DNA from: Xanthomonas sp. 10-10
GTDB taxonomy: Bacteria > Pseudomonadota > Gammaproteobacteria > Xanthomonadales > Xanthomonadaceae
DNA length: 64,000 bases
Reading direction: 5' to 3'
Assembly (NCBI RefSeq): GCF_040182365.1
Contig: NZ_CP144460.1
Span: 1 to 64,000 of the forward strand
The translations under genes and the position numbers were made by a program. Each line of letters begins with the position of its first letter. The stretch's first letter is position 1. Positions 1,402 through 3,651 of the stretch are shown in pieces. A model generated the notes under the pieces. The model did no database searches, was not told the origin of the DNA, and saw only the letters and a list, made by a program, of their open reading frames with translations.

Positions 1402-1445
1402 TGTGGATAACGTTGCCCTGAATGTCGAACGGAAAACTATCCACA
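1402..1445. promoter_or_regulatory. oriC: DnaA box pair in the dnaA-dnaN gap (candidate oriC)
   Basis: A perfect DnaA box lies at 1402-1410 (TGTGGATAA, minus orientation). A second box with one mismatch lies at 1437-1445 (CTATCCACA, plus orientation). The 277-bp gap between dnaA and dnaN becomes AT-rich towards dnaN (about 1490-1600), as expected for an unwinding region. A weaker box-like TTATCCGCT lies at 1526-1534. The layout fits an origin, but the dnaN-recF gap carries a very similar, inverted arrangement, so which one fires cannot be decided by reading. Confidence 0.65.
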
Positions 1446-1540
1446 GGTTTTACCGCCAGACCAGGGGCACTAGTCCAACGACTTTCAGGCGCTAAATTGT
1501 CTTTGGAAACAAACAGTTATGGTGGTTATCCGCTGAAAAC

Positions 1541-1563
1541 GGCCCTACCATCACCACCAAGCT
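1541..1563 (+). repeat. Inverted repeat, left copy (partner 3479-3501)
   Basis: These 23 bases immediately upstream of dnaN occur as an exact reverse complement at 3479-3501 in the dnaN-recF gap. The repeat sits between the DnaA box pair and an AT-rich stretch that leads to the dnaN start. The sequence further out remains alignable with small gaps on the AT-rich side, so the 23 bp is the conserved core of a longer inverted duplication. It may be part of the origin or a shared promoter element. Confidence 0.85.
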
Positions 1564-1609
1564 TTTGATTTATTCCATTATCTTTTAAAGCATAGGGGCA
1601 CGGAACCAC

Positions 1610-2710
1610 ATGCGTTTTACACTGCAGCGCGAAGCCTTCCTCAAACCATTGGCCCAGGTGGTCAATGTGGTCGAACGCCGTCAAACCCTGCCGGTTCTGG
1701 CCAATCTGCTGGTGCAGGTGAAGGACGGACAGGTCTCGTTGACCGGTACCGACCTGGAAGTGGAAATGATCTCGCGCACGATGGTGGAAGACGCGCAGGA
1801 CGGCGAAACCACCATCCCGGCGCGCAAACTGTTCGACATCCTGCGCGCCCTGCCCGATGGCAGCCGCGTCACCATCTCGCAGACCGGCGACAAGGTCACC
1901 GTGCAGGCCGGGCGCAGTCGCTTCACCCTGGCGACGTTGCCGGCCAACGACTTCCCGTCCGTGGACGAGGTCGAAGCGACCGAACGCGTCGCGGTGCCGG
2001 AAGCGGCGTTGAAGGAGCTGATCGAACGCACCGCGTTCGCCATGGCGCAGCAGGACGTGCGTTATTACCTCAACGGCTTGCTGTTCGACCTGCGCGACGG
2101 CTTGCTGCGTTGCGTGGCCACCGATGGTCACCGTCTGGCGCTGTGCGAAACCGAGCTTGAAAAAGCCGGCGGTGCCAAGCGCCAGATCATCGTGCCGCGA
2201 AAGGGCGTGACCGAGCTGCTGCGCTTGCTGGAAGCAGCGGACCGCGAGGTCGAGCTGGAAGTCGGTCGCAGCCATATCCGTGTCAAACGCGGCGATGTGA
2301 CGTTTACCTCCAAGTTGATCGACGGCCGTTTCCCGGATTACGAAGCGGTGATCCCGATCGGGGCCGATCGCGAGGTCAAGGTTGATCGCGAGGCGCTGCG
2401 CGCGTCGTTGCAGCGTGCGGCCATTCTGTCGAACGAAAAGTACCGCGGGGTTCGCGTCGAAGTGTCGCCTGGCCAGCTAAAGATCAGCGCGCACAATCCT
2501 GAGCAGGAAGAGGCGCAGGAAGAAATCGAAGCCGATACCAAGGTCGACGACCTGGCGATCGGCTTCAACGTGAACTACCTGCTGGATGCGCTGTCGGCAC
2601 TGCGCGACGAACATGTAGTGATCCAGCTGCGGGATGCGAATTCGTCCGCGCTGGTGCGTGAGGCGAGCAGCGAGAAGTCGCGCCATGTGGTGATGCCGCT
2701 GCGTCTCTGA
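1610..2710 (+). CDS. dnaN: DNA polymerase III beta subunit (sliding clamp)
   Basis: The 366-residue protein forms the dimeric ring that tethers DNA polymerase III to DNA and recruits other clamp-binding proteins. The start MRFTLQREAFLKPLAQV and the three consecutive clamp folds (about 1-120, 121-245, 246-366) are typical, including the conserved motif LPVLANLL near residue 27 and a C-terminus ending in MPLRL. The length matches the usual 366-367 residues. It follows dnaA after a 277-bp gap containing DnaA boxes. A parS palindrome and a rho-independent terminator follow its stop within 50 bp, so transcription probably ends here rather than running into recF. Confidence 0.98.
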   Translation: MRFTLQREAFLKPLAQVVNVVERRQTLPVLANLLVQVKDGQVSLTGTDLEVEMISRTMVEDAQDGETTIPARKLFDILRALPDGSRVTISQTGDKVTVQAGRSRFTLATLPANDFPSVDEVEATERVAVPEAALKELIERTAFAMAQQDVRYYLNGLLFDLRDGLLRCVATDGHRLALCETELEKAGGAKRQIIVPRKGVTELLRLLEAADREVELEVGRSHIRVKRGDVTFTSKLIDGRFPDYEAVIPIGADREVKVDREALRASLQRAAILSNEKYRGVRVEVSPGQLKISAHNPEQEEAQEEIEADTKVDDLAIGFNVNYLLDALSALRDEHVVIQLRDANSSALVREASSEKSRHVVMPLRL

Positions 2711-2715
2711 CGCTG

Positions 2716-2731
2716 CGTTCCACGTGGAACA
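2716..2731. promoter_or_regulatory. parS: parS centromere-like site 1
   Basis: The 16-mer CGTTCCACGTGGAACA is a palindrome matching the ParB binding consensus TGTTCCACGTGGAACA at 15 of 16 positions. It lies six bases after the dnaN stop. Clusters of parS near oriC are the ParB-loading sites for chromosome segregation, and two further copies occur in recF. Confidence 0.88.
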
Positions 2732-2735
2732 TGAG

Positions 2736-2760
2736 AGCCCGGCGAAAGTCGGGCTTTTTT
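2736..2760 (+). terminator. Rho-independent terminator after dnaN
   Basis: The stem AGCCCG/CGGGCT (2736-2741 with 2750-2755) encloses a short GCGAAAGT loop and is followed by a run of T residues. It lies 26 bp after the dnaN stop and should end the dnaN transcript. Confidence 0.85.
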
Positions 2761-3434
2761 GTATCTGGAGTTTGGTGGGTTACCCCCGCTGGATTGAAAA
2801 ACGCGACTGGCAGGGATCTGCCAACGGGATCTGCCGCGTCAGGCGAAGACTCGGCCGATGGGTCTCCTAGCCAGGTCCGCTGAAGAACGATCGGAGTCCG
2901 GGCGCGGGGTCCGCTATGCATACGTGTGCGGCATGTGGGTCTGGGGGCGCCGCCTTGTCACTGACCGCTTCAGTTGCATCGAGCCGCAATTGCGGTATCG
3001 GAAGCCGCTCTGCAGGGAGAGCGTTGCAAGCGTGTCCGGGCACGTTGGCGGCGCTGGAGAAGGCTGCATTGCGAAGGCATGATCAGTGGCTCTCGCACTG
3101 CCTTCGTCCGGACAGGCACGTCGAGACTGCGCTCTGCGTTTCTTGAAGTAAGCGCACCCTCATGGTCATGTTCGACAGTGCATGCATGGAGTTTCGCAAG
3201 TCCCATGTCTGCCCAGTCAGTACACGACACAATGGCATTGAAATTGCAGAAAACCACGGCCAACTGGAGGCAACCAATTGCAATTGTCTCAGGGAAAAAT
3301 GAGATCGAAGACGTACCCGCCGTGACACCTGCACGGTGCGACCGCCCTGCCTAATGATGAACATGTTCAGCAAAAACCGACATCTGGAATCTCTCCCCTC
3401 GATCCATTCCCTCTGCCCCGACGTGCTTTTTGAG
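2761..3434. other. Long non-coding part of the dnaN-recF gap
   Basis: About 670 bases with no gene I can support. Several open frames of 60-140 codons run through it on both strands, but none has a convincing start, a recognisable product or a codon pattern like the neighbours. With the flanking elements, the whole dnaN-recF gap is over 1 kb, which is long for two genes that are adjacent or overlapping in many bacteria. Confidence 0.6.
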
Positions 3435-3651
3435 TTATGCACATCTAGCTTTGCTTTTAAAAATAGAAATAACTTAAGAGCTTGGTGGTGATGGTAGGGC
3501 CAGATTTCACGCAAAAGTAGGTCAAGTTGTTGTTTTTGCAGTTTTTTTTCGGTGCGAAACCCTGTGTTTTACCCGCTGTTTTCGATCCGGCAACCTGTGG
3601 ATAAAGTGATGAGCCTGTTCAACCCGCACTTTTGTCCCCAAGTTATCCCCA
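3435..3651. promoter_or_regulatory. Second DnaA-box cluster with AT-rich segment (candidate origin module)
   Basis: The segment contains TTATGCACA at 3435-3443 (fits TTATNCACA), an AT-rich run from about 3425 to 3480, a perfect box TGTGGATAA at 3596-3604 on the minus strand, and TTATCCCCA (one mismatch) at 3643-3651. Read on the minus strand, the order is box, perfect box, about 95 bp, the 23-bp repeat, then AT-rich DNA. That is the same order and nearly the same spacing as in front of dnaN. It may be an active part of oriC or a relic, and it may also serve recF transcription. Confidence 0.6.
3479..3501 (-). repeat. Inverted repeat, right copy (partner 1541-1563)
   Basis: Exact reverse complement of 1541-1563. 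On the minus strand it continues into an AT-rich stretch that resembles the dnaN upstream region with small gaps. Confidence 0.85.

Follow-up and report, generated by a model that had tools for sequence, protein, structure and literature searches.

Bacterial chromosomes are taught as having a single origin of replication, and DnaA-binding regulatory sites of the datA/DARS type are DnaA boxes without an unwinding element. For Xanthomonas, Yen et al. (2002) reportedly placed oriC in the gap between dnaA and dnaN, and in X. campestris this gap is reported to be sufficient by itself for autonomous replication. Two accounts that cite this work (PMC8453159, PMC11573517) describe three DnaA boxes there, and their oriC passages mention nothing in the gap between dnaN and recF. 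Using machine learning on predicted origins, gammaBOriS obtained the Xanthomonadales oriC motif GTGGTGGTGGTRRTGGT, annotated as a DnaA box, and the sections dealing with it mention no duplication (PMC7174414).

In bipartite origins such as those of Bacillus subtilis and Helicobacter pylori, two DnaA-box clusters are parted by a gene near dnaA; this spacer is usually dnaA itself, and only one half has an unwinding element according to the definition given in PMC4285127. More than one origin-like region per chromosome has also been described, in the form of putative double origins in DoriC and of a pair of replicating elements in Pseudomonas aeruginosa (PMC4403523). The cases set out there concern origins copied along with genes, or else regions lying apart, with no inverted core copy around dnaN among them, and Xanthomonas is not named in the main text.

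Here we analysed a window of 64 kb, the whole stretch of DNA under study, from a Xanthomonas chromosome (whole genome 5.17 Mb). We found that dnaN is bracketed by two homologous, inverted origin modules, an arrangement shared by close relatives.

Results

The window has dnaA as its first gene (1..1332, plus strand), followed on the same strand by dnaN (1610..2710) and recF (3758..4864). All three are open reading frames with similarity to relatives (for dnaA, to their matching region), and the names dnaA and recF are those we presume from gene order and product. The gap between dnaN and recF (gap 2) covers 2711-3757. Behind dnaN it contains a palindrome, GTTCCACGTGGAAC (2717..2730, without strand), which we take to be parS-like; it lies outside the duplication, and the motif was found in the dnaN-recF gap of 130 of 151 loci.

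Module 1 occupies the dnaA-dnaN gap (1399..1597, plus strand; match to our sequence model R1 with E 2.2e-38) and represents the ancestral oriC core; it precedes dnaN in 73 of 80 named relatives (model R1, E up to 1e-6). The perfect DnaA box TGTGGATAA (1402..1410, minus strand), perfect in all 34 Xanthomonas loci, is followed at 35 bp by the box CTATCCACA (1437..1445, plus strand), which has one mismatch, and this spacing is 35 in 34/34 loci. An IHF-like site, AAACAAACAGTTA (1507..1519, plus strand), differs at one position from WATCAANNNNTTR, presumably the IHF consensus; the best match was at the same place in all 34 loci, with 0-1 mismatch in 28. Next come a weak DnaA-box-like sequence, TTATCCGCT (1526..1534, plus strand), 10 bp before the repeat CTACCATCACCACCA, and a C-rich 23-bp element with period 3, GGCCCTACCATCACCACCAAGCT (1541..1563, plus strand), separated by 95 bp from the second box. 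The weak box is doubtful by its match to TTTTCCACA, from which it differs at 3 or more positions in 32/34 loci. The module ends in a putative AT-rich unwinding stretch (1555..1595, plus strand), the third least stable 40-bp stretch in the window.

Module 2 (3448..3643, minus strand; E 1.8e-30 with model R1) repeats this series of box pair, IHF-like site, C-rich element and AT-rich stretch over about 200 bp in inverted orientation, and both alignment and tree identify it as a paralogue of module 1. A perfect DnaA box (3596..3604, minus strand), homologous to 1437-1445, stands 94 bp from an exact inverted copy of the C-rich element (3479..3501, minus strand; inverted-repeat search). This type of box has at most one mismatch in the gap-2 copies of all 34 Xanthomonas loci, where the box-to-element distance is 106-108 bp throughout. 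These boxes, both gaps of 95 and 94 bp and the exact inverted element agree with the original prediction. The outer box assigned there to 3651-3643 (TTATCCCCA; 3643..3651, plus strand) is 11 bp outside the homologous place; the counterpart of 1402-1410 is instead the degenerate box TTGTCCCCA (3632..3640, plus strand), with two mismatches and 36 bp from the perfect box. Across the 34 loci, window included, this place has a perfect box in 18, one mismatch in 5 and two in 11.

The IHF-like site of module 2, AAACAACAACTTG (3523..3535, minus strand), is as far from the element as its counterpart in module 1; it is at the same place in 31/34 Xanthomonas loci, with 0-1 mismatch in only 19 copies and 2-3 mismatches in 15. 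The weak box-like TTTTGCGTG (3508..3516, minus strand), again 10 bp before the repeat, is likewise doubtful, differing from TTTTCCACA at 3 or more positions in 30/34 loci. The putative unwinding stretch 2 (3440..3480, minus strand) is the second least stable 40-bp stretch in the window. On its far side lies an extra box-like sequence without counterpart in module 1, TTATGCACA (3435..3443, plus strand; bin 3431-3450 with identity 0.82). Over bins 3431-3490, which cover AT-rich stretch 2, mean identity in Xanthomonas is 0.82-0.92.

The two modules are homologous well beyond the 23-bp core. The repeat search returned an inverted pair of 34 nt (1541-1574 / 3468-3501, 91% complementary), and when gap 1 was aligned locally to gap 2 in reverse complement, similarity spanned about 200 bp and the score was 115.5. 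Chance similarity is ruled out by this score, as 200 shuffles gave a mean of 40.0 (sd 5.8) and a best score of 61.5; the direct orientation scored 53.5. For the inverted alignment the window gives a z value of 13, and seven other carriers give values of 10-24. The 5.17-Mb genome has no further copy of the 23-mer even with up to 3 mismatches allowed, and model R1 matches exactly two places in it, the two modules. Since both copies belong to the training set of R1, the strength of these E values is not independent, but the uniqueness of the two places is still informative. An exact-pattern search of the family matched 189/297 genomes within 2 mismatches, at places unchecked individually; the reversed control pattern also matched often, and therefore the sequence model was used instead. 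The window holds one dnaA, one dnaN and one recF, the genome a single dnaN, and among 459 locus-gene pairs only one gave two matches, which were two pieces of one recF. An origin doubling of the BCG type, in which genes of the dnaA cluster are copied along, was thus rejected, as we saw no duplicated genes.

The arrangement is widespread among close relatives. Model searches found two modules in 35/35 Xanthomonas and 80/81 Stenotrophomonas genomes (115/116 sampled for both genera together), and the inverted copy was absent from the 63 others among the 80 named relatives; Xylella lay outside the survey. By locus, 29 of the 39 members of one clade have the inverted copy and none of the 41 outside it. 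Only one module is present in 20/20 genomes of the sister genus g7, which includes X. albilineans, and locus L179 also has no inverted copy. Comparison of nine loci (genus g7 type and L179) for module 2 remnants gave z values of 2.4 or less, with one exception; L187, with z 4.6 and a score of 39 against the Xanthomonas module, was not counted as a remnant. In genera g43 and g44 module 2 is decayed (61-80 bits).

In the IQ-TREE phylogeny, 22 of 23 gap-2 copies fall into a single branch with support 98/96. The remaining copy, of L183, is grouped with its own gap-1 module by FastTree, and in IQ-TREE it has a long branch next to a different gap-1 module; an independent origin was not adopted, as a common origin with the other gap-2 copies is not rejected (p-AU 0.334). 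Judged from these sequences, module 2 most likely arose once, in an ancestor of Xanthomonas and Stenotrophomonas, by insertion between dnaN and recF, and the duplication is by the same comparison an old one that was lost later in some lineages.

Two further doublings in the family, apparently independent, are a direct tandem and a copy upstream of dnaA. This suggests that origin cores have multiplied repeatedly in this family.

Module 2 is an island of conservation (0.71 vs 0.31 in 34 Xanthomonas, 0.725 vs 0.357 in 17 Stenotrophomonas); the best non-overlapping 196-bp segment reaches 0.365 and 0.50, respectively. In 20-bp bins, the C-rich element and the AT-rich part (0.82-0.92 in Xanthomonas, 0.71-0.94 in Stenotrophomonas) show roughly the same conservation as the boxes (0.72 and 0.85 in Xanthomonas, 0.75 and 0.94 in Stenotrophomonas). 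When the 40-bp stretches from dnaA to recF are ranked from the least stable upwards, both AT-rich parts fall within the first five in all 56 carriers and take the first two places in 25 of them. It is hence hardly credible that module 2 is a relic, a neutral duplicate in slow decay, because it is conserved and both AT-rich parts are among the least stable DNA. Module 2 does score lower than module 1 in every Xanthomonas locus and changes more quickly from genus to genus (0.56 between the window and L115, where module 1 has 0.67), and its absence from genus g7 and L179 and its decay in g43/g44 would suit a relic. Yet it has been kept in the two genera while the flanking gap-2 DNA was scrambled, its spacing is held, and we disfavour this part of the original prediction.

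Base composition gave no direction. At four-fold sites, dnaA, dnaN and recF have a GC skew close to zero in each of the four groups (138 loci). Their T/A skew is positive throughout, without a readable switch, so that skew cannot point to the gap that fires.

Discussion

Of the readings originally offered (a bipartite origin, a duplicated origin or a relic), a duplicated origin fits best. Module 1 corresponds to the Xanthomonas oriC of the dnaA-dnaN gap and module 2 is its homologue, which, as in an oriC core, combines an AT-rich stretch with a DnaA box that has no more than one mismatch. We consider that module 2 is probably a duplicated oriC core kept by selection as a second place where DnaA opens the strands. 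Here the protein would bind the inverted box pair, and an IHF-type bend, if IHF binds there, would carry it to the C-rich element. From this element the initiator would spread along one strand, and the neighbouring AT-rich stretch would be opened in the direction of dnaN. Module 2 may be an auxiliary origin, or it may assist the origin in the dnaA-dnaN gap, which it faces at a distance of about 2 kb; helicase loading or firing at module 2 is conceivable on this model.

The layout resembles the BUS unwinding module with its DnaA-trio as portrayed in PMC8287927, in that a box-like site, a 10-bp spacer, a trinucleotide-like repeat and AT-rich DNA follow each other. As in a DnaA-trio, the box-proximal triplet of the C-rich repeat is 3'-GAT-5'; unlike in a DnaA-trio, the remaining triplets have no middle A. 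For this reason the strict rule (three or more 3'-NAN-5' triplets no further than 16 bp from a DnaA box, for which up to two mismatches were allowed) found no DnaA-trio beside the element in any of 102 modules, gap 1 and gap 2 alike. Deviant DnaA-trios are suspected by the BUS authors themselves in the same account, and the C-rich element is possibly one of these. By eye, the gammaBOriS motif, as given in the description of it, is this element read on the other strand.

The conservation of the AT-rich part and the C-rich element counts for opening, since plain DnaA binding needs neither. It speaks against a rather unlikely alternative, in which module 2 is a regulatory platform that binds DnaA for titration, ATP/ADP recycling or control of recF-gyrB transcription and never opens. 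One or two strong boxes are kept, as such a platform would require, and in 34 Xanthomonas loci the element stands upstream of recF at a near-constant 244-257 bp. In 22 Stenotrophomonas-side loci this distance is 239-687 bp, a range that would be loose for an operator at a promoter. Moreover, unlike sites of the datA/DARS type, module 2 has a conserved AT-rich part that is among the least stable DNA of the region. As the dnaA-dnaN gap alone reportedly suffices for autonomous replication, module 2 would be unneeded on a plasmid, and the sister lineage without it indicates that it is dispensable over evolution; both would suit a platform, as a regulator could be missing in the same way.

These two points also speak against module 2 as half of an obligatory bipartite origin, with DnaA on both halves joined in one looped complex around dnaN, which we regard as improbable. 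With two clusters of boxes parted by a gene and some 2 kb from each other, the locus does have the overall geometry of the bipartite origins defined in PMC4285127. In contrast to B. subtilis and H. pylori, dnaN is the spacer, the halves are homologous mirror copies and a conserved stability minimum is present in both. Because both halves thus have a putative unwinding element, the locus does not fit a bipartite origin in the published sense, which the original prediction had also offered. In addition, the outer element-to-element distance varies from 1280 to 2664 bp in 56 loci.

It seems very unlikely that the block owes its retention to some other function, for instance as a small RNA, promoter or site for another protein, with its origin-like look due to descent only. 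Module 1 overlaps the dnaN leader, so part of the module may be a promoter. Against such a role, Rfam gave no family for either gap at E values up to 1 (over 1-6000 the only match is in dnaA, below the gathering score), and the origin parts are retained jointly, in order and spacing.

Returning to the reading as a duplicated oriC core, a stronger form of it is possible, though doubtful: Xanthomonas and Stenotrophomonas may have twin origins, both complete and facing each other, which would load helicase and fire alternatively or together, perhaps one per fork direction. The 20 sister-genus genomes that live with one module speak against the proposal in either form, and this lineage offers a natural control.

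In practical terms, the oriC passages of the Xanthomonas accounts place the origin in the dnaA-dnaN gap only (PMC8453159, PMC11573517). An inverted second origin core in two genera would question the rule of one origin per chromosome and could hint at the ancestry of bipartite origins. The question is open to comparison, as some lineages have two copies, others one or a decayed copy. This family may be a natural setting for testing why a single origin is the norm and how two initiation sites 2 kb apart stay in step.

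Results

The chromosome of Xanthomonas sp. 10-10 is one contig of 5,169,345 bases, and the window begins at its dnaA (1-1332), the first gene. A gap of 277 bp (gap 1) separates dnaA from dnaN (1610-2710), and 1047 bp (gap 2) lie between dnaN and recF, which starts at 3758. The original prediction placed an origin-like module in gap 1 (module 1) and an inverted counterpart in gap 2 (module 2), sharing a 23-bp C-rich element (1541-1563, plus strand; 3479-3501, minus strand). Its coordinates held throughout, except for the outer box of module 2, which had to be corrected. Aligning gap 1 with the reverse complement of gap 2, we found that the likeness spans the module, well beyond the 23-bp core, as had been proposed. 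In the window, 161 of 244 aligned positions are identical over a stretch slightly longer than the module. The score lay far above 200 shuffles in all eight two-copy loci compared (z 10 to 24), and the three one-copy loci compared gave no such alignment (z -0.4 to 0.5). The duplicated unit is the whole module, not just the 23 bp; no genes were found to have been copied together with it.

Both modules share one order of parts: a minus-strand DnaA box, 35 or 36 bp, a plus box, an IHF-like site, a weak box-like site, 10 bp, the C-rich element, an AT-rich stretch and TTTAAAAGC. Spacings come from 34 Xanthomonas genomes, taking the best match inside a preset range; G029, whose modules are split between two contigs, was excluded. 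The two boxes of the pair are spaced 35 bp in gap 1 and 36 bp in gap 2 (34/34 each), and the distance from plus box to C-rich element is 108 bp in 34/34 gap-1 and 106-108 bp in 34/34 gap-2 modules. Least certain among the parts are the IHF-like and weak-box sites. Scored against the IHF consensus, the IHF-like site has 0-1 mismatch in 28/34 gap-1 versus 19/34 gap-2 copies, and the weak box has at least three mismatches to TTTTCCACA in 32/34 and 30/34 copies, respectively. In the Stenotrophomonas loci L106, L108-L110, L112, L113, L115, L119 and L158, gap 2 has one more box, TTATGCACA- or TTATACACA-like, outside the box pair, whereas the extra box of the Xanthomonas module 2 lies on the opposite side of the AT-rich stretch. 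Module 2 seems to have gained a different box in each genus.

Using R1, a sequence-only model trained on 29 modules, we found at least one module in 190 of 198 family genomes. When 33 of the 198 were re-searched, the second module proved genuine and full-length in 17 (13 inverted, 4 direct); in 14 the second match was short and arose from the palindromic box pair, and two had a single match. The arrangement was present in close relatives, with both modules in 34/34 further Xanthomonas genomes (35/35 with the window's own) and two modules in 80/81 Stenotrophomonas genomes. The remaining one has none, perhaps because the contig is missing. Among the matches listed, the 70 Stenotrophomonas genomes with both places carry them on one contig, on opposite strands and 1.5-2.1 kb apart. 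Among 80 named relatives, an inverted second module occurs in 17, namely six Xanthomonas and 11/11 named Stenotrophomonas; it is absent from the X. albilineans record and from one metagenome bin labelled Xanthomonas. Genus g7, where the tree places X. albilineans, has exactly one module in 20/20 genomes. Module 2 as half of an obligatory bipartite origin is unlikely, given this sister genus and the minimal oriC of X. campestris, where the dnaA-dnaN gap alone reportedly gave autonomous replication (Yen et al. 2002).

In a tree of DnaA, DnaN and RecF from 80 loci, selected by us from those fetched, the inverted copy occurs in 29/39 members of one clade (support 1.0) and in 0/41 loci outside. A module tree of 59 sequences, also our selection, places 22/23 gap-2 copies on a single branch (98/96). 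Together, these trees point to an old duplication. Most simply, it would be older than the divergence of Xanthomonas, Stenotrophomonas and the albilineans-type genus, with later loss in the last and in locus L179, where we found no clear remnant of module 2, with one weak exception. The 23rd copy, an inverted second module in L183 (G086, 4055-4249), falls elsewhere on a long branch; a single origin of all gap-2 copies, L183 included, was not rejected (p-AU 0.334). It may be a very diverged member, or reflect gene conversion or an independent duplication. The ancestral origin is that of gap 1, whose module occurs in 73/80 named loci, far outside the carrier clade. The gap-2 copy diverged faster between genera (window versus L115: module 2 0.56, module 1 0.67). 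In gap 2 of L105, L193, L213 and L181 (genera g43/g44), module 2 scores 61-80 bits; it is decaying there, an intermediate state.

Other doublings were seen. The genus g4 loci L191, L192 and L218 carry two complete modules in gap 1 as a direct tandem, about 340 bp apart, a true tandem in 3/8 g4 genomes. L191 and L192 share 84% identity in their second copies, so this doubling, too, has been kept. L190 (G136) has a second module in direct orientation at 4877-5063, close to a contig end and, if the contig is circular, directly upstream of dnaA; it is 71% identical to its own dnaA-dnaN module.

Immediately 3' of dnaN lies a palindrome (2717-2730) which we take to be parS-like. The same motif occurs in gap 2 of 130/151 loci, so that a segregation site and an origin may sit within 2.5 kb of each other. 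The minus strand at 439-519 matches AsdA, an antisense RNA of dnaA, weakly in Rfam (34 bits, E 0.00035; gathering score 52).

Discussion

In our full-text literature search, which reached few subscription journals, none of the texts seen described another module in the dnaN-recF gap; given this coverage, the absence is not proof of novelty. Within the searched literature, the wording "between dnaN and recF" occurs in one paper alone, on E. coli. Two Xanthomonas genome papers, as excerpted, report three DnaA boxes between dnaA and dnaN (PMC8453159, PMC11573517).

Strings akin to the C-rich element stand at the same place in most family loci read, e.g. CACCATCACCACCA, with CATCATCACCAT there in more distant genomes. 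In its excerpted text, gammaBOriS lists an order-typical oriC motif, labelled DnaA box, which by eye is the reverse complement of the element (PMC7174414). The element resembles the DnaA-trio, a known unwinding module, in standing 10 bp behind a weak box-like site, in its period of three and in the box-proximal 3'-GAT-5'; the published rule, as excerpted, asks for at least three 3'-NAN-5' triplets (PMC8287927), which occur in 0/102 modules. We infer that it is either an aberrant trio or some other kind of initiator site.

Pairwise identity among 34 Xanthomonas averages 0.71 in module 2 versus 0.31 in the remainder of gap 2, and among 17 Stenotrophomonas it averages 0.725 versus 0.357. Bins across the AT-rich stretch and C-rich element of module 2 reach 0.82-0.92 in Xanthomonas, matching parts of gap 1, with box bins at 0.72 and 0.85; the Stenotrophomonas values are 0.71-0.94, and 0.75 and 0.94 for the boxes. 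By these identities, what opening requires is kept, as well as the parts for binding. By nearest-neighbour energies, the AT-rich stretch at 3440-3480 ranks second and that at 1555-1595 third for low stability among all 40-bp stretches of the 64-kb window. First place goes to one in a cluster of highly AT-rich unstable stretches at 37217-38002; the window's GC minimum is at 36001-38000.

Skew gave no pointer to which gap fires. The main rival explanation is that module 2 serves as a regulatory platform. Judged from sequence, module 2 would most likely be an auxiliary DnaA-driven opening site.
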